This document shows, in pieces, positions 1,132 to 39,362 of a stretch of 39,758 nucleotides of DNA; within the stretch, counting starts at the first letter, position 1; each line of letters opens with the position of its first letter. Source of the stretch: Clostridiales bacterium (GTDB lineage Bacteria; Bacillota; Clostridia; Saccharofermentanales; Saccharofermentanaceae); assembly GCA_017511005.1 (NCBI GenBank), contig JAFWLP010000080.1:1-39758 (forward strand), written 5' to 3'. The translations under genes and the position numbers were made by a program. The notes below the pieces were generated by a model. That model saw only the letters and a program-made list of their open reading frames with translations, was not told the DNA's origin and searched no databases.

Positions 1132-4100
1132 ATGCCGCTTGATAAAACTATACGTAAAGTCCTTGTTATCGGATCCGGCCCGATCGTAATCGGCCAGGCA
1201 GCAGAGTTCGACTACGCAGGCACACAGGCGTGCCGCGCATTGAGAGAAGACGGCATCGAGATCGTACTCCTTAACTCCAACCCGGCTACCATCATGACAG
1301 ACAAGTCGATGGCAGATAAGATCTACATCGAGCCTTTGACGCTTACTACAGTTAAGAGGATCATCGAGACGGAAAAGCCTGACTCGATTCTCTCAGGTCT
1401 TGGCGGACAGACGGCACTCAACCTCTGCATGCAGCTTGCCAAAGAAGGATTTCTTGAATCCCACGGTGTTAAGCTCTTAGGTTCATCGCCTGAATGTATC
1501 GACAAGGCCGAAGACCGTCAGATGTTCAAAGACACGATGGAATCCATCGGTCAGCCATGCATACCGTCCAAAGTCGTAACTACAGTGGAAGATGCTTTGG
1601 ATTTTGCCGGAGAGATCGGTTACCCGGTCATCGTAAGACCTGCATTCACACTCGGAGGAACAGGCGGCGGAATCGCAAAGGACAGGGAAGAACTCCATGA
1701 GATCGCAAGAAACGGACTTGCATTATCTCCTATCACACAGGTTCTTATCGAGCGCGGAATCGCAGGCTGGAAAGAGATCGAGTTCGAAGTGATCAGAGAT
1801 AAGGACGGAAATGTCATCACCGTCTGCTCGATGGAGAACTTAGATCCTGTCGGTGTCCATACGGGTGACTCCATCGTCATCGCTCCTGCGGTAACACTCT
1901 CAGACAAAGAGTATCAGATGCTCAGAACCGCATCACTTAACATCATCGAAGCATTGGGTGTAGAAGGCGGCTGCAACTGCCAGTTTGCACTTAATCCCGA
2001 CTCCTTTGAATATGCGGTAATCGAGGTTAACCCGAGAGTTTCCAGATCATCCGCGCTTGCTTCAAAAGCAACGGGTTATCCGATCGCAAAGGTTGCCACA
2101 AAGATCGCGATTGGTTACAGACTCCATGAGATAGTAAACGCGGTAACGGGTCATACATATGCGGCTTTTGAGCCTGCATTGGATTATGTTGCTGTCAAGT
2201 ATCCGAAGTGGCCTTTTGACAAGTTCGTCTATGCAAAGAGAAATCTCGGAACACAGATGAAGGCGACAGGCGAAGTCATGGCTATCTCCGATTCATTCGA
2301 AAGTGCGCTCATGAAGGCCGTAAGAGGCGCAGAGATCTCTGCTGACACCCTTCACCTGAAGAAGATGGAGGAAGTTGCAGACGAAGACCTCATGGAGCGC
2401 TGCGTAACACCTACGGACGAGAGACTTTTCTATGTTGCAGAAGCGATCAGAAGAGGCGTTGAGATCGGGACGATCAATAAAGAGACGAAGATCGATATGT
2501 GGTTCCTCGCCAAGATCAGGAATCTGATCGTTTTTGAGAAAGAAATCACCGGCAGGGAGATCTCTTTCGACGAATACGTAAAGGCCAAGAAACTCGGTTT
2601 CACGGATAAGGCAATCGCAAGGATCACAGGTAATCCCGTGACATATGAACTCAAGCCTACGTTCAAGATGGTTGATACATGCGCCGGCGAGTTCGAGGCA
2701 CATACGCCTTATTTCTATGCAACGTTTAACAGACCGGAAGAAGGCGGCGAGAACGAAGCCGACTTCGAGAAGGCAGGAGATAAGGAAAAGCAGACTGTGA
2801 TCGTATTCGGTTCAGGCCCGATCAGGATCGGCCAGGGCATCGAGTTTGACTATGCTGCGGTTCACTGCGTGCATGCTTTAAGAGATCTCGGCTACAGGGT
2901 CGTCATAGTAAACAACAACCCTGAGACGGTATCTACTGATTTCGATACCGGTGACAGACTCTATTTCGAGCCTCTGACTCCTGAAGACGTAATGAATATC
3001 GTTCATCAGGAACAGCCTTTCGGCGTTGTTGTCGCTTTCGGCGGACAGACAGCCATCAAGCTCACGAAAACCCTTTCCGAGAATAACATCAACATCATCG
3101 GAACCTCCGCGGATTCCATCGACATGGCAGAAGACCGTGAAAGATTCGACGAGCTCCTTGAAAGACTCGGGATCGCAAGACCTAAGGGATTCTCCGTGCT
3201 TACTCTTGAAGAAGCTCTCAAGGCGGCAAACACTCTGGAATATCCGGTGCTTCTGAGACCTTCCTACGTTCTCGGCGGTCAGAACATGATCATTGCATTC
3301 AACGATGAGGATGTTAATGAGTACATGAAGATAATCCTCGCGCAGGGCATTGAGAATCCGGTGCTTATCGACAAGTACATTCAGGGTAAGGAAATCGAAG
3401 TTGATGCCATCTACGACGGTAAGGATGTTCTTATACCGGGACTCATGGAACACGTTGAGCGCGCGGGAATCCATTCCGGTGACTCCATCGCAATGTATCC
3501 TGCAAAGCATATCTACGATGATATGTACAAGAAACTCGCTGATACGACCATTGCGCTCTGCGACGGCCTTAAATCAACAGGTATCGTAAACATACAGTAC
3601 ATCGTTAAGGACAACAGGATCTATGTGATCGAGGTTAACCCGAGAGCTTCAAGAACAGTTCCTTACATGAGCAAGGTAACGGGAATCCCGATGGTGGACG
3701 TAGCCATCGAAGTAAGTCTCGGAACAAAACTTGCCGACATGGATTACGGTACGGGATTCTACAGACAGTCGCCTTATACGGCTGTAAAAGTTCCTGTGTT
3801 CTCTTTCGAGAAACTTACGGACGTTGATACACAGCTCGGACCTGAGATGAAGTCCACGGGCGAAGTCCTGGGCGTCGGCAGAAACCTTTCCGAAGCTCTG
3901 TACAAGGGCCTTGTTGCGGCAGGTTACAAGATGTACAAGCGCGGCGGTGTGTTCATCACGGTAAGGAATTCCGACAAGATGGAGATCGTCGAGATCGCAA
4001 AGAAGTTCGACATCATGGGCTTCAAGCTCTATGCCACACACGGTACGGCAGAAGCTCTGAGACAGGCAGGCATGGAAGTAACAGCCGTATCCAAGATCCA

Positions 4101-5190
4101 CGAATCTGATGAGAACAATACGATGTCCCTCATCGAGAGCGGCAAGATCAATTACATAATCTCAACATCAGCAAAGGGAAGACTCCCTGCAAGAGACTCG
4201 GTTAAGCTCAGAAGAAGAGCTGTCATGCTCGGTATCCCGTGCCTTACCGCCATCGATACGGCTGACGCTCTTGCGGACTCACTCATGAGCCACTTCTCCG
4301 AGATCAACACAGAGCTCGTTGATATAAACAACATGCGTGACAAGCGCCGTAAGATCAACTTCATAAAGATGCAGGGCGCAGGCAACGATTATATCTACAT
4401 CGACTGCATGGAGAGCATGGTATCCTCACCCGAATCGCTGTCAGTCTACATGAGTGACAGGCACTTCGGTGTCGGCGGTGACGGTATTGTTCTCATCGCG
4501 CCTTCAAAGGTTGCCGACTGCAAGATGATCATGTTCAATCTTGACGGTTCCGAAGGCATGATGTGCGGTAATGCGATCAGATGCGTTGCCAAGTACATGT
4601 ACGACGAGCGCGGACACAAGAAGAGACACATGAAGATCGAGACCAAGAGCGGGATCAAGACGCTCGAACTCATGACCTTAGGCGGAGTTGTCGCAAGAGT
4701 TAAGGTCGACATGGGCAAGGCTGAACTTAATCCGCTGAAGATCCCCTGCACTCTTCCGGGTGACACTGCGATCAACGTTCCGGTAAACATAGACGGCGAT
4801 GAATATAAGATCACGGCTGTTTCAATGGGCAATCCTCACGCTGTTGTATTTACCGATCTTGTTGATGTTCTGGATCTCAACGCGATAGGACCTAAGTTTG
4901 AATACGCTACGGATATCTTCCCTGAGAGAGTCAACACCGAATTCGTCAAAGTCATCGATGAACATACGCTCAAGATGAGAGTCTGGGAGAGAGGCTCCGG
5001 CGAGACTATGGCCTGCGGAACAGGTGCATGCGCAACGGTGGTTGCAGCCTGCGAGAACGGTTTCTGCAGGAAGGGTGAAGATATAAGAGTAATCCTTAAG
5101 GGCGGAGATCTCATCATCAGGTACACGAATGATGCGGTATTCATGACCGGTAACTGTGCCAAGGTCTTCGAAGGAACAATGGAGGTCTGA
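1132..5190 (+). CDS. carB-dapF: CarB-DapF fusion: carbamoyl-phosphate synthase large subunit joined to diaminopimelate epimerase
   Basis: The gene encodes 1352 residues in one uninterrupted frame. Residues 1 to about 1067 form a complete CarB: the carboxyphosphate half opens with VLVIGSGPIVIGQAAEFDYAG, the second half starts near residue 554 (VIVFGSGPIRIGQGIEFDYA), and a C-terminal MGS-like allosteric domain spans about 934-1067. Residues 1068-1352 form a complete diaminopimelate epimerase: FIKMQGAGNDY near 1080, the first active-site cysteine in MMCGNAIRC (Cys1145) and the second in ACGTGAC (Cys1295). CarB is normally about 1070 residues and DapF about 275, so neither half is truncated. The junction has almost no linker. 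Met1068 (nt 4333) could be an internal start, but no clear Shine-Dalgarno precedes it. The gene is preceded by AGGAGG (1117-1122) and shares TGATG with the next gene. DapF converts LL- to meso-DAP; dapL lies about 9 kb away. The parts are certain; whether the product is processed is unknown. Confidence 0.96.
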   Translation: MPLDKTIRKVLVIGSGPIVIGQAAEFDYAGTQACRALREDGIEIVLLNSNPATIMTDKSMADKIYIEPLTLTTVKRIIETEKPDSILSGLGGQTALNLCMQLAKEGFLESHGVKLLGSSPECIDKAEDRQMFKDTMESIGQPCIPSKVVTTVEDALDFAGEIGYPVIVRPAFTLGGTGGGIAKDREELHEIARNGLALSPITQVLIERGIAGWKEIEFEVIRDKDGNVITVCSMENLDPVGVHTGDSIVIAPAVTLSDKEYQMLRTASLNIIEALGVEGGCNCQFALNPDSFEYAVIEVNPRVSRSSALASKATGYPIAKVATKIAIGYRLHEIVNAVTGHTYAAFEPALDYVAVKYPKWPFDKFVYAKRNLGTQMKATGEVMAISDSFESALMKAVRGAEISADTLHLKKMEEVADEDLMERCVTPTDERLFYVAEAIRRGVEIGTINKETKIDMWFLAKIRNLIVFEKEITGREISFDEYVKAKKLGFTDKAIARITGNPVTYELKPTFKMVDTCAGEFEAHTPYFYATFNRPEEGGENEADFEKAGDKEKQTVIVFGSGPIRIGQGIEFDYAAVHCVHALRDLGYRVVIVNNNPETVSTDFDTGDRLYFEPLTPEDVMNIVHQEQPFGVVVAFGGQTAIKLTKTLSENNINIIGTSADSIDMAEDRERFDELLERLGIARPKGFSVLTLEEALKAANTLEYPVLLRPSYVLGGQNMIIAFNDEDVNEYMKIILAQGIENPVLIDKYIQGKEIEVDAIYDGKDVLIPGLMEHVERAGIHSGDSIAMYPAKHIYDDMYKKLADTTIALCDGLKSTGIVNIQYIVKDNRIYVIEVNPRASRTVPYMSKVTGIPMVDVAIEVSLGTKLADMDYGTGFYRQSPYTAVKVPVFSFEKLTDVDTQLGPEMKSTGEVLGVGRNLSEALYKGLVAAGYKMYKRGGVFITVRNSDKMEIVEIAKKFDIMGFKLYATHGTAEALRQAGMEVTAVSKIHESDENNTMSLIESGKINYIISTSAKGRLPARDSVKLRRRAVMLGIPCLTAIDTADALADSLMSHFSEINTELVDINNMRDKRRKINFIKMQGAGNDYIYIDCMESMVSSPESLSVYMSDRHFGVGGDGIVLIAPSKVADCKMIMFNLDGSEGMMCGNAIRCVAKYMYDERGHKKRHMKIETKSGIKTLELMTLGGVVARVKVDMGKAELNPLKIPCTLPGDTAINVPVNIDGDEYKITAVSMGNPHAVVFTDLVDVLDLNAIGPKFEYATDIFPERVNTEFVKVIDEHTLKMRVWERGSGETMACGTGACATVVAACENGFCRKGEDIRVILKGGDLIIRYTNDAVFMTGNCAKVFEGTMEV

Positions 5191-5852
5191 TGACTGCGGG
5201 AAACAGAAGCTTCAGAGCCGCTGTATTTGACATGGACGGACTTATCCTTGATTCTGAGAGGACAGTCCTGAAGTGCTGGGAAAAGATAGGCGCCAAATAC
5301 GGATTTGCAGATATAACTACTTACGGCATAAGCGTCATCGGAAAGAATAAGAAGGCGACCGTTGACGAATTCCGTAAGGTTTACGGGGTCCCGGGCGAGC
5401 CTTACGAACGTGAGCTCAGAGAGATCTATAACGATATGGCGGCCAGGGGCGAGGTGCCTCTGAAGCCCCATACGCTTGAACTTTTGAGCTCAATGAAAAT
5501 TGCCGGAATGAAGATCGCGATCGCTTCTTCCTCGACAAGAGAAGAAGTCACTTCGCAGATGGATATGCTGGGCGCATTGCCGTATTTCGATACCTGTGTC
5601 TGCGGCGATCAGGTAACCAGATCCAAACCTGATCCTGAGATATTCCTTTTGGCTTGTGAAGCTTTGAACGTCAAGCCGGAGGAAGCCGTCGGACTTGAGG
5701 ATTCATATAACGGCGTAAGGGCATGCAAGGCTTCAGGTCTTTACACGATCATGGTGCCGGACATTCAGCAGCCCGATGACGAGATGACCGGTCTTGCCGA
5801 TATCATCCTTCTGTCTCTTAAGGATGTTCAGGATTTCTTAAACTTAAGGTGA
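5190..5852 (+). CDS. HAD superfamily hydrolase, beta-phosphoglucomutase/phosphatase-like
   Basis: A 220-residue haloacid dehalogenase family protein. Motif I is FDMDGLILDSE, with the nucleophile and acid/base aspartates Asp14 and Asp16. Motif II is the serine run in IASSST, motif III is the lysine in RSKPDPEIF, and motif IV is GLEDSYNGV. A helical cap lies between motifs I and II, as in subfamily IA enzymes (beta-phosphoglucomutase, phosphoglycolate phosphatase, GPP/YcjU types). The substrate cannot be read from the sequence. The ATG overlaps the carB-dapF stop (TGATG), so it is the third gene of the car operon. Its last 25 bp overlap the convergent EamA gene. A nucleotide or sugar phosphate substrate is possible but is inference. 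Confidence 0.88.
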   Translation: MTAGNRSFRAAVFDMDGLILDSERTVLKCWEKIGAKYGFADITTYGISVIGKNKKATVDEFRKVYGVPGEPYERELREIYNDMAARGEVPLKPHTLELLSSMKIAGMKIAIASSSTREEVTSQMDMLGALPYFDTCVCGDQVTRSKPDPEIFLLACEALNVKPEEAVGLEDSYNGVRACKASGLYTIMVPDIQQPDDEMTGLADIILLSLKDVQDFLNLR

Positions 5853-6745
5853 TTGTTGTTATAAAGATAATTCATCACTGATGCGCCGATGATTATGGCG
5901 TATCCGGCAATGCTGATCCAGTCGGGGAATTCACCTAAGACCAGAAGTCCAAGCAGAGCCGTAAAGATAACGGTCGAATAGTCGTAGATGGATATTTCTT
6001 TTGCGGGACATGCTGCATAAGCCGAAGTAATGAAGATCTGCCCGAAGCAGGCTGAGACACCGGTCATGCAGCAGTAAAAGAACTGGATAAGCGTTATCGG
6101 CTGATAAGTGAATATGATAAACGGTACGAGCGCAAGACATGAGAAGGTTGAGAAGAATGCCACGACAACTATCCCGCGTTCGCCCTTAAGCGTTACCTTG
6201 CGGAGAAAAGTGTAGGCGATCCCTGCGCAGATACCGCCGATAAGTGCCACCGCCAGAGGAAAAACATCATCATTCGTAACGCCCATTGCGCCAAAGATAA
6301 AAGCAGGCTTTACCACTAAGACCGCGCCTGAGATGGCGACGAGTATCGCTGCCCACTGGAATCCGTCAGCGGCTTCTTTCAGAACGATTATCGATGTGAG
6401 CATGGCGAAAAAAGGCGAGAGTTTGTTGAGCATCATGGCATCGGACATGTTTGTGTTCGAGATGGCATAGAAATTGGCTATGACGCCTATCGTACCGAAT
6501 CCCGCGCGCATGAGAAGTCCGGGCATGGAGCCTTTCTTGATCTTGAATTTTTCCGGAGATCGGGCGAGCATTATGTAAGACATTACTATCGCAACGAGAT
6601 TCCTGAAGAAAGCTTTCATAAAGACAGGCATGTCGCCGGCAAGATTGATGAATAGAGCCATGCACGCAAAAGAGAACGATGACAGCAGGAGGTAAACGAT
6701 ACCCCTCTTCTTCGGTGATAACCTGTCCAGCAGCTTTATTGTCAT
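5828..6745 (-). CDS. EamA/DMT-family transporter
   Basis: A 305-residue polytopic membrane protein with about ten hydrophobic segments arranged as two EamA repeats, as in the drug/metabolite transporter superfamily (RhaT/YdcZ/SAM-transporter relatives). It begins with KRGIVYLLLSSFSFACMALF, typical of first-helix EamA sequences, and later contains ISGAVLVVKPAF, a common end-of-repeat motif. The second repeat ends in GYAIIIGASVMNYLY. The ATG at 6745 has an AGGAAG Shine-Dalgarno. The substrate is unknown. The gene is convergent with the HAD gene and its 3' end overlaps it by 25 bp, so no terminator can sit between them. It is divergent from the oxidoreductase at 6901. Confidence 0.88.
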   Translation of the reverse strand: MTIKLLDRLSPKKRGIVYLLLSSFSFACMALFINLAGDMPVFMKAFFRNLVAIVMSYIMLARSPEKFKIKKGSMPGLLMRAGFGTIGVIANFYAISNTNMSDAMMLNKLSPFFAMLTSIIVLKEAADGFQWAAILVAISGAVLVVKPAFIFGAMGVTNDDVFPLAVALIGGICAGIAYTFLRKVTLKGERGIVVVAFFSTFSCLALVPFIIFTYQPITLIQFFYCCMTGVSACFGQIFITSAYAACPAKEISIYDYSTVIFTALLGLLVLGEFPDWISIAGYAIIIGASVMNYLYNNNHLKFKKS

Positions 6746-19664: not shown

Positions 19665-22600
19665 ATGGCTACCTTAACAAGGCTTGCTAGCACGATGACG
19701 GCGCGCTATTTTCCTTCCGGCACGCTTACGGACGCTTTCTATCTTGACGGAAGACTTTGCGGAAAGAGAGAAACAAGACAGGCCGATATTACAATCGACA
19801 AAGATGAGAGAGGATTTTTCTTCTCGCTTTTTACCCATCCCGCTATAGAAGGATTTGAACCCGGCACCATCCCGCCATTTGAGCCACAGCTTCGCGGTCT
19901 TTGCAATGAAGTGAAGAACGGACACAAAGAGATCGATTCCATGATCGAGAAGTTCCTGTCCACCGCGGTTGAGGTTGCGGGAACGACCAAGCTTCTGGAT
20001 AACGAGAACAGGGACCCGTATTTTACCGGTGTCATCGTAAGAGATTCCGAGGCTTTCGCGGTTACCATCGGCGGCGGTCTCGCATTCCTTTACAGGGACG
20101 ATACGCTTTTCCCGCTGACAGATGCCGGCATACCCATGGAACCCATAGACGCTTACGGCAACAGAGTCGGTGATTTCCAGTATTACTGCTCTTCCAAGAC
20201 TGCAAATGCGCTCTGGTCCAATTTCTTTACGCTTACTCCCGATGACTGCATCATCCTTTGCAACAAGTCCATATACGATGCCTTAGGCCAGAGAGAGATA
20301 CTCAGGATCCTGACAGACGCTGAAGATCAGTGTGACGCTGCAGGTCTCATCCTCACACAGGCCTCTGCAAGAATGCCCAATACGCCCATGCAGATCTCCA
20401 TCTCATTTGTTGAGAGCGTTACCAAGGAAGAGAAGCGCGGTCTGTTCGGCAAGAAGAAAAAGAACAAGGATTTTGAGAGTGAAGGACACGAGCTCCTGGA
20501 GTCCACCGTTGAAGGCGGAGAACTCGGAGCAGCGGCTAAGGCAATTGCCGATGCCGGTTTTGTAAGTCTCACTCCCGAACAGCCCATTCCGGCCCCTGTC
20601 GTTGAGAACAGCGCACCTTCAGACGGAAGCATTCAGTTCGGTGATATGGCGGGTCAGCCTGATGCCCAAAAGGTTGCAGGTGATTCGCTTGAATTCCCTG
20701 ACAGGATAGATGAACCTCAGGAGGTATCGGCTGAAGAAGCAATGAAGAGGATCTTCGGCGAGATGAAGGAATCATCAAAGAATGAATCCGAAGCGGTGGC
20801 TAAGGCAGAGGAAGCTGCAGTTTCCGACTCACCTTTCGTATTCAATATCGACGGAGCACCTCCCAAGGAAGAACCCAAGCCTGCAGAGGATTTTGAGATC
20901 CCTGCGATGGAGACGATCTCCACCACGGAGTTTGCCCCCGATATTACTGATGATTCTCCCACAAAGCCCGTTACGGATATCAATTCCCTCTTCTTCGGTG
21001 CCGGCGACGGATCATTAGCCCAGGCAATGGCAGACGCTAAGAAACAGGAGACCGCGAAGGAGACTTCCATCTCGGATCTCAAGGAAGAGGCTGTTATTCC
21101 CGATATCACTCTTGATGAGGAACCGGTTGTTCCGGCTGTTCCGGCCGCTCCCGAGATCACACTGGCTCCCGCAGAACCTGCGGAACCGGTAATTCCCGTT
21201 ATTCCGGTCATTCCTTTTACAAGTGAAACGCCCGTATCAGTATCAGTGCCTCCCGCACCGGCAGTTGTCAACAAGCCGGAGGAGATAGTCTTCGCGCCGG
21301 GAGAAGTTACCGCTGATTCAGGCGAGAAGGACGTGGCTGCGGATGTTGAGGATACATTCGATCCTTATGGCAATTTAAGTGCCCAGGAACTCAAGAATAC
21401 TCCTCCGCTCGTTTTCGGTGATGACGCTCTTGCGCCAAAGACTGAACCCGTTCCTTCTGAAGAGGTATCTTCGATCCCTGTTCCCGAATATGAGATCAAT
21501 GAGGAAAAGCCTGAACTGAAAGACGAAGATAAGCTTAACGTTGATTTCCCGGAGACTGACAAGCAGGATGAGGATGAGATCCAGGAAGTCACTGCAGTTG
21601 ATGAGGTTGTTCCCCAGGAGGTTAAGTCAACGCCTTCACAGGATGACATAGTCCTTCCTTTCGGAAGTTCCGTTTTTGTTGAGGAGGAAGACGTTCCGCA
21701 GGCGAAAGCCGATGATATCCCTCAGATGCCGCTCTATGATTCGGATAATTACAATAATCCCGTAAATGCCGTCGGCTCTGAACAGAATGTCTCACAGCTT
21801 TTTGATAACGCATCTGTTTACGGTGATTATGCCGGAACCGAAGTACAGGGCAATGATGAGGTTCCGCCTTATCAGCCTTATGGTTCGGAGGCTTTTTCGA
21901 CTGCCGATCAGAGCAGTTTTGGTACTTATGGCGATCAGACCGTAGATATGCAGGGAGGTGTACCTATGGACAATAACGGATATTCCGGTTTCGGCGGCAA
22001 TGACAACGGGTATGTTCCCGGCTATGAGCAGGATCCGCAGGGCAGTTTCGGCGGTGATTATTCCGCTGCCGGATATCAGGCACCTGCCGCACAGGGTTAT
22101 CAGCAGGATATGTCCCGTGAAAGCTATACTGATTTCTCTGCTCAGGCTCAGGGCGGATACGGCGACGATTATTCGCAGCCTCAGGGTGGATATGGCGATG
22201 ATTATTCACAGCCTCAGGCTTCCGCTTCTTCTTCGGCTTCGCTCGATGACGAATGGTTCAATAACATCCTCGGTGTGGACGACAGCGGCCAGACATACGG
22301 CGGTGATCAGAATTACGGCTTCAGTCCTGCCGCAGATGATGCTCCGGCTTCCACGCCGAATGTCCAGCAGCAGGCTCAGTATTCGAATCCCGGACAGACA
22401 TCTTACAGACCATCCGGTTCAGGTCCGAATAATAACGGAAGACCGACCGGAAGCAGTCCCAGAACGAGCGCTTCAGGCGGAAGAAGCGGCAATGGCGGCG
22501 GAAAGAAGGTTAAGCTTAACCGTAACGGTTATATGTTCATTGCTTTCCTTGCGATCTTACTGATCTGCATCATCATTGTCGTTGCGCTGATAGCAAGAGG

Positions 22601-23021
22601 CTGCAGCAAGAAGACAAAGCCCACTGAGACCGTTCCTTCACTTTCCGAGACGGAGATCACGACGGAGTCAACGGCACCTTCAACACAGGCTACTCTGCCC
22701 GATGCATCAGCTCCTATCGGATACTTTATATTCTCAGACTATATCGGATTCAGAACATGGTGGGATGTATTCCATTACGTTTATGACATCGATATCGAGA
22801 ACAACAGTGACCCGAGGATCGCGACGATCATCACCTACAACAAGCTCGATCCTGCAACCTATACCGGTCCTAACAGCGGAGATCATCTCCTCCTGCCGCC
22901 AAGAGGTGTCTTGACCGGTGAGATCCCGATCACGTTCAATGCGGGAGGCTCATCGACCGGCGAGACTTCGGCTGCCGAGACTACCCAGGGTGAGATAACG
23001 AGTTCCATCCACATCACATGA
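19665..23021 (+). CDS. Membrane protein: PP2C-like pseudo-phosphatase domain, disordered linker, one TM helix, extracellular LysM-like domain
   Basis: A 1118-residue protein without a signal peptide. Residues 1 to about 250 resemble a PP2C/SpoIIE-type phosphatase: FTGVIVRDSEAFAVTIGG, FLYRDDTLFPLTDAG and LTPDDCIILCNKSIYDALGQREI follow the PP2C strand order. The metal-binding aspartates seen in GDSR, SDG and DN positions read GGG, NKS and NT, so catalysis is doubtful. About 260-940 is low-complexity, rich in Glu/Pro/Ala, then Gly/Tyr/Gln, with a tandem GGYGDDYSQPQ repeat. A single transmembrane helix lies near 956-978 (IAFLAILLICIIIVVALIA). The outside part has a Thr/Ser-rich spacer and a LysM-like domain (WWDVFHYVYDI...DPRIATIITYNKL...GDHLLLPP). 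The topology is inside-N, outside-C. A role in sensing the cell wall is inferred. Its own promoter and flanking terminators make it monocistronic. Confidence 0.78.
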   Translation: MATLTRLASTMTARYFPSGTLTDAFYLDGRLCGKRETRQADITIDKDERGFFFSLFTHPAIEGFEPGTIPPFEPQLRGLCNEVKNGHKEIDSMIEKFLSTAVEVAGTTKLLDNENRDPYFTGVIVRDSEAFAVTIGGGLAFLYRDDTLFPLTDAGIPMEPIDAYGNRVGDFQYYCSSKTANALWSNFFTLTPDDCIILCNKSIYDALGQREILRILTDAEDQCDAAGLILTQASARMPNTPMQISISFVESVTKEEKRGLFGKKKKNKDFESEGHELLESTVEGGELGAAAKAIADAGFVSLTPEQPIPAPVVENSAPSDGSIQFGDMAGQPDAQKVAGDSLEFPDRIDEPQEVSAEEAMKRIFGEMKESSKNESEAVAKAEEAAVSDSPFVFNIDGAPPKEEPKPAEDFEIPAMETISTTEFAPDITDDSPTKPVTDINSLFFGAGDGSLAQAMADAKKQETAKETSISDLKEEAVIPDITLDEEPVVPAVPAAPEITLAPAEPAEPVIPVIPVIPFTSETPVSVSVPPAPAVVNKPEEIVFAPGEVTADSGEKDVAADVEDTFDPYGNLSAQELKNTPPLVFGDDALAPKTEPVPSEEVSSIPVPEYEINEEKPELKDEDKLNVDFPETDKQDEDEIQEVTAVDEVVPQEVKSTPSQDDIVLPFGSSVFVEEEDVPQAKADDIPQMPLYDSDNYNNPVNAVGSEQNVSQLFDNASVYGDYAGTEVQGNDEVPPYQPYGSEAFSTADQSSFGTYGDQTVDMQGGVPMDNNGYSGFGGNDNGYVPGYEQDPQGSFGGDYSAAGYQAPAAQGYQQDMSRESYTDFSAQAQGGYGDDYSQPQGGYGDDYSQPQASASSSASLDDEWFNNILGVDDSGQTYGGDQNYGFSPAADDAPASTPNVQQQAQYSNPGQTSYRPSGSGPNNNGRPTGSSPRTSASGGRSGNGGGKKVKLNRNGYMFIAFLAILLICIIIVVALIARGCSKKTKPTETVPSLSETEITTESTAPSTQATLPDASAPIGYFIFSDYIGFRTWWDVFHYVYDIDIENNSDPRIATIITYNKLDPATYTGPNSGDHLLLPPRGVLTGEIPITFNAGGSSTGETSAAETTQGEITSSIHIT
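22149..22214 (+). repeat. Two tandem 33-bp coding repeats
   Basis: Two adjacent 33-bp units (22149-22181, 22182-22214) each encode QGGYGDDYSQP. They differ mainly at third codon positions, so the repeat is being maintained at the protein level. They lie in the disordered linker of the pseudo-PP2C/LysM-like protein. Confidence 0.9.
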
Positions 23022-32903: not shown

Positions 32904-34004
32904 ATGGCCAACAGTGAATTATCCAAACTCAAGATCTTATTCATATATGATTTTTTCAAGAATCAGATAAGTTCCTCGGGAGGAAGGGAATCGGTTTCCG
33001 TAAATGAACTGATCGCGTATCTTGAAGAGCAGACCGGAACCACGTTTGAGCGCAAGTCTATCTATGCCGACATCAGTAAGATCAATGAATATGTACGGAA
33101 ATCCGGACAGACAAAGGATGATTCATGGATATTTACCGAAGGCAAAAAATATAAAAGGACCGAACTCGGCAAAGAGATACTGATCGATGAGGCCAGGCTC
33201 ATAGTTGACGCCATAAGCACAACGACATTCGTCAATTCGGATCTCTGTGAGAAGATCATTAACATGTTTCCGACTTATTTCGAGGGCGATTACCAGAAGC
33301 GTGCTCTGTATCCTCACAATGAGAAGATGGACCGGAAGAGCATTTTGCTGCTTAATAACATAAGAAACGGAATTGAGACCAAAAATGCCCTGAAGATCAC
33401 TTACGGATATCTGCTCGGCAGCAATCTCACCGAGAAGACCGAGAAGATCGTATCACCGATGGCACTCGACTGGGAAAACAACTGTTACTATCTGATAGCC
33501 ATTGACAATGCAGAAGCCAAAGATCTTGAAAGAGACCACACATTGACATCCGCATTGAGGCGGTACAGGGTAGACCGGATAGCCAGCATCGCGGTTTTGG
33601 ACAAACAGTCTTTATTCATTGATTACAAAACCGACAGGATCAAGGACCAGGAGCTTAAGAGTTTCATTAACAATTCACTTTCCGCCTACTCGAGCAGCAG
33701 GACAATACAGCTTGGGATCACGATCAGCGGAAAGACACGCAAGGATGCGCTTAAAGCTTATGGAGCTTTCTCCTCAAAGATAAAAGGAAATGACAGAGTC
33801 AGGATAGCGGATGATACAAAGCTTGATAAGGGCATACTGATGATCAGCGTGAACACCGGACTTGCCCCGACGCTTTACACGGATCTGTTTGAACTGAGCA
33901 CGTTTGAGAATGTGGATATCAGCATCGATAACGAGGAAGTCTGCCGTGAATACGGGAAATACATTAAGAAGGCGGCATCGGCGGCAAAACTTGATTGCCT
34001 CTGA
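32904..34004 (+). CDS. WYL-domain transcriptional regulator
   Basis: A 366-residue regulator. The N-terminal about 90 residues form a winged helix-turn-helix (KLKILFIYDFFKNQIS...VSVNELIAYLEEQTGTTFERKSIYADISKINEY). The WYL-type middle domain shows LKITYGYLLG, SPMALDWENNCYYLIAID and LRRYRVDRI. A C-terminal WCX-like extension follows. WYL proteins sense nucleotides or small ligands and act as repressors or activators in many metabolic and defence loci; no defence genes are nearby. It is divergent from DUF1015, whose operon is the obvious target. GGAGG (32892-32896) lies 7 nt before ATG 32904. Confidence 0.92.
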   Translation: MANSELSKLKILFIYDFFKNQISSSGGRESVSVNELIAYLEEQTGTTFERKSIYADISKINEYVRKSGQTKDDSWIFTEGKKYKRTELGKEILIDEARLIVDAISTTTFVNSDLCEKIINMFPTYFEGDYQKRALYPHNEKMDRKSILLLNNIRNGIETKNALKITYGYLLGSNLTEKTEKIVSPMALDWENNCYYLIAIDNAEAKDLERDHTLTSALRRYRVDRIASIAVLDKQSLFIDYKTDRIKDQELKSFINNSLSAYSSSRTIQLGITISGKTRKDALKAYGAFSSKIKGNDRVRIADDTKLDKGILMISVNTGLAPTLYTDLFELSTFENVDISIDNEEVCREYGKYIKKAASAAKLDCL

Positions 34005-37821: not shown

Positions 37822-39333
37822 TTATTTCCTCACAAAGAGCATGATGTCATCTGTGTCGTAAACTGCCTCGAAGTCGTCATCGTGCATGAGCGATGAGCAA
37901 AGATAAGTATCAAGAGACTTGGAAACGACCAGATAGTTGAATTGATATTTGTCTACGAAATTCCTGTAATAGTATCCACCGTTAAGCATCAGCAGATATT
38001 CATTGAAATAGTCGTATTCTTTGTTGTTGCTTTCCAGGAACAGTTCTGCTCTTCCGTCAATATACGGATGGTAACCGAAGAACTCGAAATACTGGCCGTC
38101 GTTGAAATTGGCATAGAGGTACACGGGTTCTTCGGATTCGTTCAGTATGCCGACGATATCATACAATTTTGAATAATGAGCCGTGTTCTTCATCTTGATG
38201 TCGCTTGTTGTCAGGAATCTTCCCTCACACATCAGTACCACGGCGCAGCAGAGAAAGATGATGATCAATACTTTTATGCGCTTTGTGATTATCTTTTTCA
38301 GTTTCTCAAGGATCACTGTATTATCAAAGTCTTTTATCAGATAAGTAAAAGCCGGTACGCCGAAGAGCATGCCGTAAGGGATTCCTTTTATCTGCATCAT
38401 TCCGAGCAGTACCGTTCCTGTGAAGAGCAGAAAGTAACGTACGGCAAAAGCTTTTTTCCTGATGAAGAATATGATGAGGAATACAACAGCCAGCACGGCG
38501 AAAAAGGTCTTTCCCTCTGCTACTCCGATATTTGTCGGTTTCATCTCCGCGATAACGTTGAAATTGTCCTTGCCGTATGATTTGGTCAGATAGATCATGT
38601 TGTCGAACCCATATGGATTAAGCAGACCCACAACGATGCAGACGATAAAAATGGCCAGTATCATTATGAGATCTCCGGTGGCATCGTGATTGACCGATTT
38701 TGTGTGAAGCGGAACCGCCGAGATGATATACGGCAGCATAATCACGAGGAGCATCGGCCACATGGCGGCATGAAGATTGATCAGCAGCAGGGAGAGTGCG
38801 GGAATTCCGATGAGATATTTGACCTTGTTGGTCTGAACGTATTTCTCGAGCATGCAGACCTCGGCCAGCAGGATCACGTATGTGAATATCTGCGGTCTGG
38901 TAACCATGAACGGATCAAATATCAATATATTGATCAGAGCCGCGAACGAGGCGGATATTATCTCGTTTTTGGTTATCAATGAGATCAGGCGGTATGTCAG
39001 GAACAGCATGAGCACATTTATCGCGTATAGAATGATCAGCGGTCCGAATTCCCTTAGGAAATTATAGCTGGAATAGAAGATCACGGAACTGAGCCACTGC
39101 TGGGCAACGATCTTCATCGATGAGTGCATTGACAGCATGTCGGTATAGGGAAAACCGTGCTTGACTATATAATCGCCCGTAGAATACAGAAAGAAAAAGT
39201 CGTTATCCAGTGAACGGACCTGAAAGATCGAGATGACGACAGGCAGCGCGAGGATAAGGAACTTACACCATTTGGGCATTTTTTTTGAATTGAGCGGTTT
39301 ACTGCTTTGATTAATGCTTTGAGACTCTGTCAT
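37822..39333 (-). CDS. GT-C-like polytopic membrane protein
   Basis: A 503-residue protein with about ten transmembrane helices and a C-terminal soluble tail. The first external loop, with DNDFFFLYSTGDYIVKHGFPYTD and AQQWLSSVIFY, follows the pattern of GT-C glycosyltransferase-like families (acidic residues, then D...W before helix 2). The C-terminus has YIDGRAELFL and FDKYQFNYLVVSKSL. The sugar and acceptor are unknown. ATG 39333 is preceded by GGAG at 8 nt; an in-frame TTG 6 bp upstream leaves too little spacing. It lies next to the gap gene but on the other strand. The GT-C call is moderate. Confidence 0.75.
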   Translation of the reverse strand: MTESQSINQSSKPLNSKKMPKWCKFLILALPVVISIFQVRSLDNDFFFLYSTGDYIVKHGFPYTDMLSMHSSMKIVAQQWLSSVIFYSSYNFLREFGPLIILYAINVLMLFLTYRLISLITKNEIISASFAALINILIFDPFMVTRPQIFTYVILLAEVCMLEKYVQTNKVKYLIGIPALSLLLINLHAAMWPMLLVIMLPYIISAVPLHTKSVNHDATGDLIMILAIFIVCIVVGLLNPYGFDNMIYLTKSYGKDNFNVIAEMKPTNIGVAEGKTFFAVLAVVFLIIFFIRKKAFAVRYFLLFTGTVLLGMMQIKGIPYGMLFGVPAFTYLIKDFDNTVILEKLKKIITKRIKVLIIIFLCCAVVLMCEGRFLTTSDIKMKNTAHYSKLYDIVGILNESEEPVYLYANFNDGQYFEFFGYHPYIDGRAELFLESNNKEYDYFNEYLLMLNGGYYYRNFVDKYQFNYLVVSKSLDTYLCSSLMHDDDFEAVYDTDDIMLFVRK

Positions 39334-39362
39334 GATCAATGCTCCATTCGATTGATTAGATA

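Follow-up and report, generated by a model that had tools for sequence, protein, structure and literature searches.

Why should an enzyme of diaminopimelate (DAP) synthesis be built on to the end of an enzyme that makes carbamoyl phosphate? The question is raised by a stretch of 39,758 nucleotides from a Clostridiales bacterium of the family Saccharofermentanaceae (GenBank assembly GCA_017511005.1, contig JAFWLP010000080.1; hereafter the window), in which a single reading frame at positions 1132-5190 (+ strand), 1352 codons long with zero internal stops, encodes the carbamoyl-phosphate synthase subunit CarB followed directly by the diaminopimelate epimerase DapF. The answer towards which we lean is that the window protein is bifunctional, that DAP held in the DapF pocket modulates CarB, and that sister domains which have lost a catalytic cysteine act as a ligand-binding regulatory part of CarB.

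The fusion gene and its two parts

The CarB-DapF fusion is real. An initial annotation of the window had described one frame holding a complete CarB, MGS domain included, and a complete DapF with the catalytic cysteines Cys1145 and Cys1295, and profile searches and alignment agree with that description. The ATG of the gene (1132-5190, +; 1352 amino acids) is preceded by AAGGAGGAG. Residues 1-1067 (1132-4332, +) form the CarB portion, with two ATP-grasp halves, an oligomerisation domain and an MGS domain (Pfam CPSase_L_D1/D2/D3 and MGS); these domains, together with an adjoining carA, make up the full architecture of CarB. The portion matched the NCBIfam models PRK05294 (1469.5 bits, residues 1-1053) and TIGR01369 (1446.3 bits), both above the equivalog cut-off, and residues 1-1050 aligned with 1007 bits to structure chain 1bxr_A, which we take to be E. 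coli carbamoyl-phosphate synthase. The MGS-like, allosteric domain occupies residues 951-1039 (3982-4248, +; PF02142) and carries the motif KIHE..STSAKGR, presumably a phosphate site as in E. coli CarB.

At the junction (4300-4353, +), which reads ..NTELVDINNMRDKRRKINFIKMQGAGNDY.., the CarB tail NTELVDINNMR runs almost without a linker into strand 1 of DapF. The DapF portion, residues 1075-1350 (4354-5181, +), matched TIGR00652 with 271.7 bits against a cut-off of 114.65, over positions 1-268 of the 270 in the profile and covering both halves of the enzyme; the search of its own genome also hit it, at 4354-5181. The catalytic residues of the DapF structure 1BWZ are given in an excerpt of PMC3581254 as Cys73, His159, Glu208 and Cys217. 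All four have equivalents in the window: Cys1145 (codon 4564-4566, +), within a CGN motif, corresponds to Cys73, Cys1295 (codon 5014-5016, +), within a CGTG motif, to Cys217, and the histidine and glutamate are aligned. The first of these cysteines is missing from many sister fusions.

Loss of the catalytic cysteine with retention of the pocket

Active-site columns were read in 141 rows, 89 of fused and 52 of stand-alone DapF. Dropped before this count were 60 loci taken to repeat sampled genomes (56 with both cysteines, four with Ala), a further 25 loci from the genus of the window, each with both cysteines, and the fragment L069; the 52 stand-alone rows, which include two identical pairs, are a subset of those listed. 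Both cysteines were present in 52/52 stand-alone rows and in 36/89 fused rows (termed intact here); the other 53 fused rows lacked one or both and are termed deficient. The equivalent of Cys73 was missing from 52 of the 89, replaced by Ala (31), Gly (14) or Ser (7), and Cys217 was kept in 44 of the 53 deficient rows. On the CarB tree (86 fused rows) the state of Cys73 switches at least 12 times. The 53rd deficient row, L161 of genome G529, has kept Cys73 and lost Cys217 along with other residues; it is the most altered fused domain seen, with changes at N64, N157, N190 and in the Cys217 region.

The pocket around the lost cysteine was largely retained. Taking Asn11, Asn64, Asn75, Asn157, Asn190 and Arg209 as the further ligand contacts of DapF, the 53 deficient rows kept H159 and N75 throughout, N64 in 52, N157 and E208 in 51 each, N190 and R209 in 49 each and N11 in 43. 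On average they hold 91% of the 54 positions whose conservation among stand-alone DapFs is 95% or higher. Among them Gly1082 was kept in 13/53 and Cys1145 in 1/53; the latter figure holds partly by definition, cysteine loss being what defines the group, which is not so of the rest of the retention. Values of dN/dS (NG86, hand-picked pairs, some rows being shared among pairs) were 0.02-0.26 for the DapF part of 15 deficient pairs and 0.016-0.17 for their CarB part, and 0.019-0.037 for the DapF part in the seven of eight intact pairs that gave a value.

Deficient fusions thus show the marks of a pseudoenzyme, a catalytic residue being gone while pocket and fold are under purifying selection; the window is not among them. 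The deficient domain appears to be kept as a folded, ligand-binding unit free of two-cysteine chemistry, under purifying though somewhat relaxed selection. Judged by sequence, 53 of the 89 fused domains do not carry the two-cysteine pair and should not be called epimerases, and a "DapF" call in these fusions should be read with the warning that it often denotes a domain incapable of that chemistry.

Distribution of the fusion

The window corresponds to contig C59 in a metagenome-assembled genome (MAG) of 1.84 Mb, 76% complete. Its genus was sampled by 85 genomes, with named Saccharofermentans contigs matching at 91-96%. Search thresholds were strict and the counts of distribution are lower bounds. 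An in-frame junction was found in at least 66 of the 85 genomes, comprising 58 complete fusions, two truncated at the CarB start where the contig ends, five contig-end pieces spanning the junction, and G079, whose CarB frame (L164/L059) is broken just before the MGS domain, which could be an assembly error; G083, in which the contig piece stops before the junction, was left out. Twelve other congeners had a stand-alone dapF only, and in seven neither fusion nor dapF was seen. A check proposed with the initial annotation asked whether a stand-alone dapF is absent, and in the genus this holds, a second TIGR00652 gene being seen in 0/66 fusion-bearing genomes; in the window's own genome (the MAG being 76% complete) no other dapF was found.

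The same check asked how many genomes share the fusion, which is common in the genus and occurs also in the class and in other classes. In the class sample, MGS and DapF lay in one frame in at least 57 of 391 genomes, ten of them congeners, and the order search yielded one further fusion genome outside the window's family (G180). At least 19 of 398 genomes in the phylum sample passed a threshold of E 1e-140, namely the window's own genome, G276 (already in the class count) and 17 from other classes. By the family codes of the order, class and phylum searches, the fusion spans at least 36 families.

Origin of the fusion

The source of the fusion is likely to have been a carA-carB-dapF-dapL operon. 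Unfused genes stand in this order at loci L162, L183 and L186 of other genomes, with purF ahead of carA at L162, and carB-dapF-dapL occurs at a contig end at L163; dapF and dapL of L162 were confirmed by profile, while dapL of L163, L183 and L186 was read by eye. Since such operons exist and intact fusions often lie beside dapL, the fusion joins operon neighbours. The remark in the initial annotation that this is not an obvious pathway fusion therefore needs amending: the fusion stands, but its partners are not an unrelated pair. Genomes G503 and G233 each hold both the fusion and a separate carB-dapF set, and the separate, dapF-linked carB of these two shares only 51-52% identity with the CarB of the window, which indicates two CarB lineages each tied to dapF.

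In the CarB tree the 68 rows labelled as fused group with L066, truncated at a contig end, and L125, and the unfused L202 lies at the base. L125 (G311) has a CarB frame broken at about residue 742, upstream of the DapF part, which could be an assembly error. A larger tree placed all 87 rows labelled fused, of 115, on one side of one branch, with an SH-aLRT of only 80. In a careful tree of 36 rows, 22 fused rows and the unfused L202 formed one clade (100/100), the fused row L250 fell outside L202 with weak support (86/64), and the fused rows formed one side of a branch in only 8% of bootstrap trees; from these last two results L202 could be either a pre-fusion state or a later split. Its layout would fit the former: carB ends ..SLVDINTL-TGA and is followed, after about 50 nt including AAGGAGG, by the ATG of dapF, which is the arrangement expected before fusion. 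The CarB trees give no support to the idea that fusion happened independently in different families.

In the DapF tree some stand-alone DapFs nest within fused ones. One of these, in G448 (L194, 3313-4194), has an N-terminus, ..LKNMREARMKLEFTKM, like the CarB tail of the fusions. Such a relic tail speaks for re-separation, and the gene seems to be a fusion that has come apart again; the other nested stand-alone DapFs may be splits, transfers or the result of weak resolution.

Other routes to meso-DAP

Among 65 fused genomes outside the window's genus, a stand-alone dapF was found in 28/40 with a deficient fusion against 7/25 with an intact one (Fisher p=0.002, uncorrected for kinship); in a 48-genome set the association of an extra dapF with cysteine loss gave p=0.006 (Fisher). 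Either a stand-alone dapF or the meso-DAP dehydrogenase Ddh was present in 36/40 and 19/25 genomes respectively. The genomes with a deficient fusion and neither route were two MAGs at 65% completeness, one at 88%, and G529 at 99%. Stand-alone dapF and Ddh were also both unseen in six genomes with an intact fusion (G191, G219, G311, G359, G502 and G764; 76-97% complete), the pyridoxal phosphate (PLP)-type DapF2 (PMC9026213) not having been searched for; in G311, as noted, the CarB frame is split. In these six the fused DapF is therefore probably a working epimerase.

Gene neighbourhood

Context was read at 80 fused loci outside the window's genus, 27 intact and 53 deficient, many of them cut by contig ends and uncorrected for kinship. 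The gene dapL lies downstream of 14/27 intact and 0/53 deficient fusions, whereas argF lies upstream of 0/27 and 17/53, and argD accompanies 0/27 and 14/53. An ANTAR-type regulator was seen at nine intact loci and no deficient one, and glnA at six and none. One representative of each was profiled (DapL 536 bits, ArgF 427, ArgD 425, ANTAR 52, Gln-synt_C 343), that of glnA being a fragment frame under the GlnA equivalog cut-off. At one deficient locus (L157 of G492) dapL is found upstream of carA, and congeners of the window mostly have thrC or gltD ahead of carA where that flank is available. The MGS motif KIHE..STSxKGR is lost in all 17 argF-linked rows and kept in the window and most fusions not linked to argF.

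The ANTAR-type regulator lies upstream of carA at L118, L119, L121, L126, L128, L129, L131, L236 and L237 (profile-checked in L129), and at six of these nine loci glutamine synthetase is upstream as well. Since proteins of the ANTAR type typically target transcript terminators, nitrogen antitermination control of these fusion operons is possible. No Rfam match above the gathering score other than tRNA and rRNA, and so none for a riboswitch or T-box, was obtained from the 38 sources scanned. A tie between dapF and nitrogen is met elsewhere too: for Clostridium thermocellum, part of PMC3478167 records a joint rise of dapF and glutamine synthetase in response to ethanol stress, and its proteomic table contains both dapF and the neighbouring aminotransferase. 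A second dapF-dapL pair was seen behind putative guaA and pyrG at L177 of G196 (1321-6629; guaA, pyrG and dapL read by eye).

In the window itself, carA (51-1130, +), encoding a small subunit of 359 amino acids (PRK12838, 487 bits; TIGR01368, 450 bits), lies directly upstream of the fusion gene. Downstream and outside the fusion, a gene for a HAD-family hydrolase (5190-5852, +; PF13419, 119 bits) has a start overlapping the fusion stop codon and is probably co-transcribed with it; the product resembles beta-phosphoglucomutase, with a score under the cut-off of that model. Further along the window, open reading frames of 1118 amino acids (19665-23018, +), 366 amino acids (32904-34001, +) and 505 amino acids (37825-39339, -) had no Pfam match at 1e-5.

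Proposed function of the fused domain

In the scheme that we favour, the CarB part would act with CarA to make carbamoyl phosphate, and the DapF part, retaining both cysteines, would epimerise LL-DAP to meso-DAP, as the only classical DapF seen in fusion-bearing genomes of the genus. The fusion would have arisen once, or nearly so, when the stop and spacer between carB and dapF were lost in a carA-carB-dapF-dapL operon. Since the epimerase is attached directly to the allosteric MGS domain, DAP occupancy of its pocket probably reports the supply of lysine and cell-wall precursors and modulates carbamoyl-phosphate synthesis. In sister lineages, repeated loss of Cys73 with the pocket kept may have left a ligand-binding regulatory domain of CarB; as the domain was maintained with its pocket after the catalytic cysteine had gone, it would sense its own ligand (DAP, or some related diamino acid) rather than provide the coupling through UMP or ornithine that the initial annotation had suggested. 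Peptidoglycan is built from two precursor streams, DAP and UDP-sugars; since carbamoyl phosphate is a source of UTP, and through it of the UDP-sugars of the wall, as well as of arginine, it would be reasonable for DAP to signal to CarB. What the sequences show directly is the fusion, where it occurs, its single clade (L202 included), the gene order around it, and cysteine loss with the pocket kept under purifying selection; both enzyme activities in the window, DAP as the ligand and allosteric coupling are inferred. A broader version is offered tentatively: that DapF has turned many times into a metabolite sensor of CarB, being enzyme and sensor at once in lineages such as that of the window and a pure sensor after loss of Cys73, with the argF branch having also given up the phosphate-site motif of MGS.

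Several observations weigh against this scheme. N11 is D or S in 10/53 deficient rows and Gly1082 is mostly changed, so that the ligand may differ in those lineages. The dN/dS of the deficient DapF part stands at 0.7-3.4 times the value for its CarB part and exceeds it in 13 of 15 pairs, making some relaxation likely. G529, 99% complete, has a heavily altered domain and shows neither alternative route to meso-DAP. A paired phylogenetic comparison of cysteine loss with possession of an extra dapF yielded three independent pairs against none in the 48 genomes, which is not significant. The one-clade result could weaken, since it was obtained with only 28 unfused CarB rows, drawn largely from the family of the window and from fusion-bearing genomes, and the DapF-only tree is less tidy, with eight label changes, five of them forced by starred branches. 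Finally, Ddh is present in 8/8 congeners tested, the window's genome included, so DapF need not be the sole route to meso-DAP there and the genus does not strictly depend on the epimerase, which is probably active but perhaps dispensable.

A plain bifunctional enzyme, in which operon neighbours were fused and their ratio fixed with no cross-talk between them, would account for much of what was found, and we regard it as unlikely though deserving of serious attention. Separate carA-carB-dapF-dapL operons exist, dapL lies beside 14 of the 27 intact fusions, and the fused DapF probably works in the six genomes with both cysteines and no other TIGR00652 gene or Ddh seen. What such an enzyme leaves unexplained is that domain and pocket stayed under purifying selection after the loss of Cys73 in 52 of 89 rows, mostly beside another dapF or Ddh.

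It is rather improbable that the domain is a passive scaffold, CarB having come to need DapF for folding or oligomer assembly while catalysis decayed wherever another dapF or Ddh existed. Such dependence would suit the position of L202 as the sole unfused member of the fused CarB clade, a count biased by searches that mostly required the DapF part, and the faster change of DapF, whose dN exceeded that of CarB in 14 of 15 deficient pairs and whose dN/dS did so in 13. A scaffold, however, has no need to keep a pocket, and the losses are focused on Cys1145 and Gly1082 while the ligand contacts show 81-100% retention and H159 is invariant in the 53 rows; moreover, the DapF of G448 (L194) was seemingly released from a fusion.

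New chemistry in the deficient domains, such as a one-base isomerase or lyase acting on another amino acid, for instance of the arginine branch, seems very unlikely. Retention of the pocket, H159 and E208, and of Cys217 in 44 of the 53, would suit it, as would argF and argD neighbours at 17 and 14 of the 53 loci, and the changes of N11 to D or S and of Gly1082 could alter specificity. The replacements of Cys73 vary, though, among Ala (31), Gly (14) and Ser (7), Cys217 is missing from nine of the 53, and the idea is inapplicable to the window.

Production of a separate DapF by internal initiation or cleavage, which would make the fusion nominal only, we consider most improbable. The initial annotation found no separate product evident, and the junction of the window bears this out: within 45 codons upstream of GNDY the only start codons are the ATGs at residues 1052, 1068 and 1080, and no Shine-Dalgarno-like sequence precedes any of the three. 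An internal start was accordingly rejected for the window, no supporting start codon being found near the junction. Several intact fusions do keep a relic DapF start, MKLxFTKM, as internal residues, preceded in L122, L126 and L128 by a Shine-Dalgarno-like sequence, and the stand-alone DapF of G448 still bears a relic of the CarB tail; lineages with the relic start may use an internal start. The window lacks the Met of that relic, and L156 and L244 offer no start codon in the 45 codons before the GND motif other than the ATG of the KM motif itself.

An assembly or sequencing artefact, the error hiding a stop near 4320-4333 that the initial annotation had allowed for, is excluded for practical purposes even though the window is a MAG contig, because the same uninterrupted frame recurs in many separate assemblies, in two records that carry no MAG label (L038, JHXJ01000032 AB4001; L058, FNPA01000003 YAD3003) and in three single-contig genomes from other families (G375, G739 and G763).

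Significance and comparison with known systems

If the DapF domain does regulate CarB, a single protein would tie the supply of pyrimidines and arginine to that of wall precursors across many Clostridia and relatives of theirs; no such link was met with among the open-licence PubMed Central papers searched. In the open-licence full text of that archive, no matched title or abstract contained a CarB-DapF fusion and no report was found of DapF as an allosteric or pseudoenzyme domain; the architecture may well have an entry in domain databases. With L202 and the apparent re-separation, the versions of the domain at this one site, from intact through half-altered to heavily altered, would form a natural series from enzyme to allosteric sensor.

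The window protein resembles bacterial CarB (1bxr) over residues 1-1053, in its MGS domain and in having carA upstream, and differs in the 280-residue DapF domain that follows MGS and in belonging to a CarB clade of its own. Its resemblance to DapF (TIGR00652; 1bwz, 2otn) extends to a full-length domain with both catalytic cysteines and equivalents of His159 and Glu208; here, however, that domain is fused behind CarB, in a family where the first cysteine is gone from 52/89 fused rows as against 0/52 stand-alone rows. Joining of a carbamoyl-phosphate synthase (CPSase) to another enzyme is known from CAD, the animal multienzyme of CPSase, aspartate transcarbamoylase (ATCase) and dihydroorotase (DHOase), the fungal counterpart of which has a dead DHOase part. 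In the window the partner is drawn from the DAP/lysine pathway, not that of pyrimidines, and is C-terminal to CarB. The deficient fusions are comparable to enzyme-derived allosteric domains and pseudoenzyme regulators such as HisZ of the HisG complex, in which an enzyme fold is retained for ligand binding or regulation after catalysis has been lost, with the difference that intact and altered forms here coexist within one fusion family.

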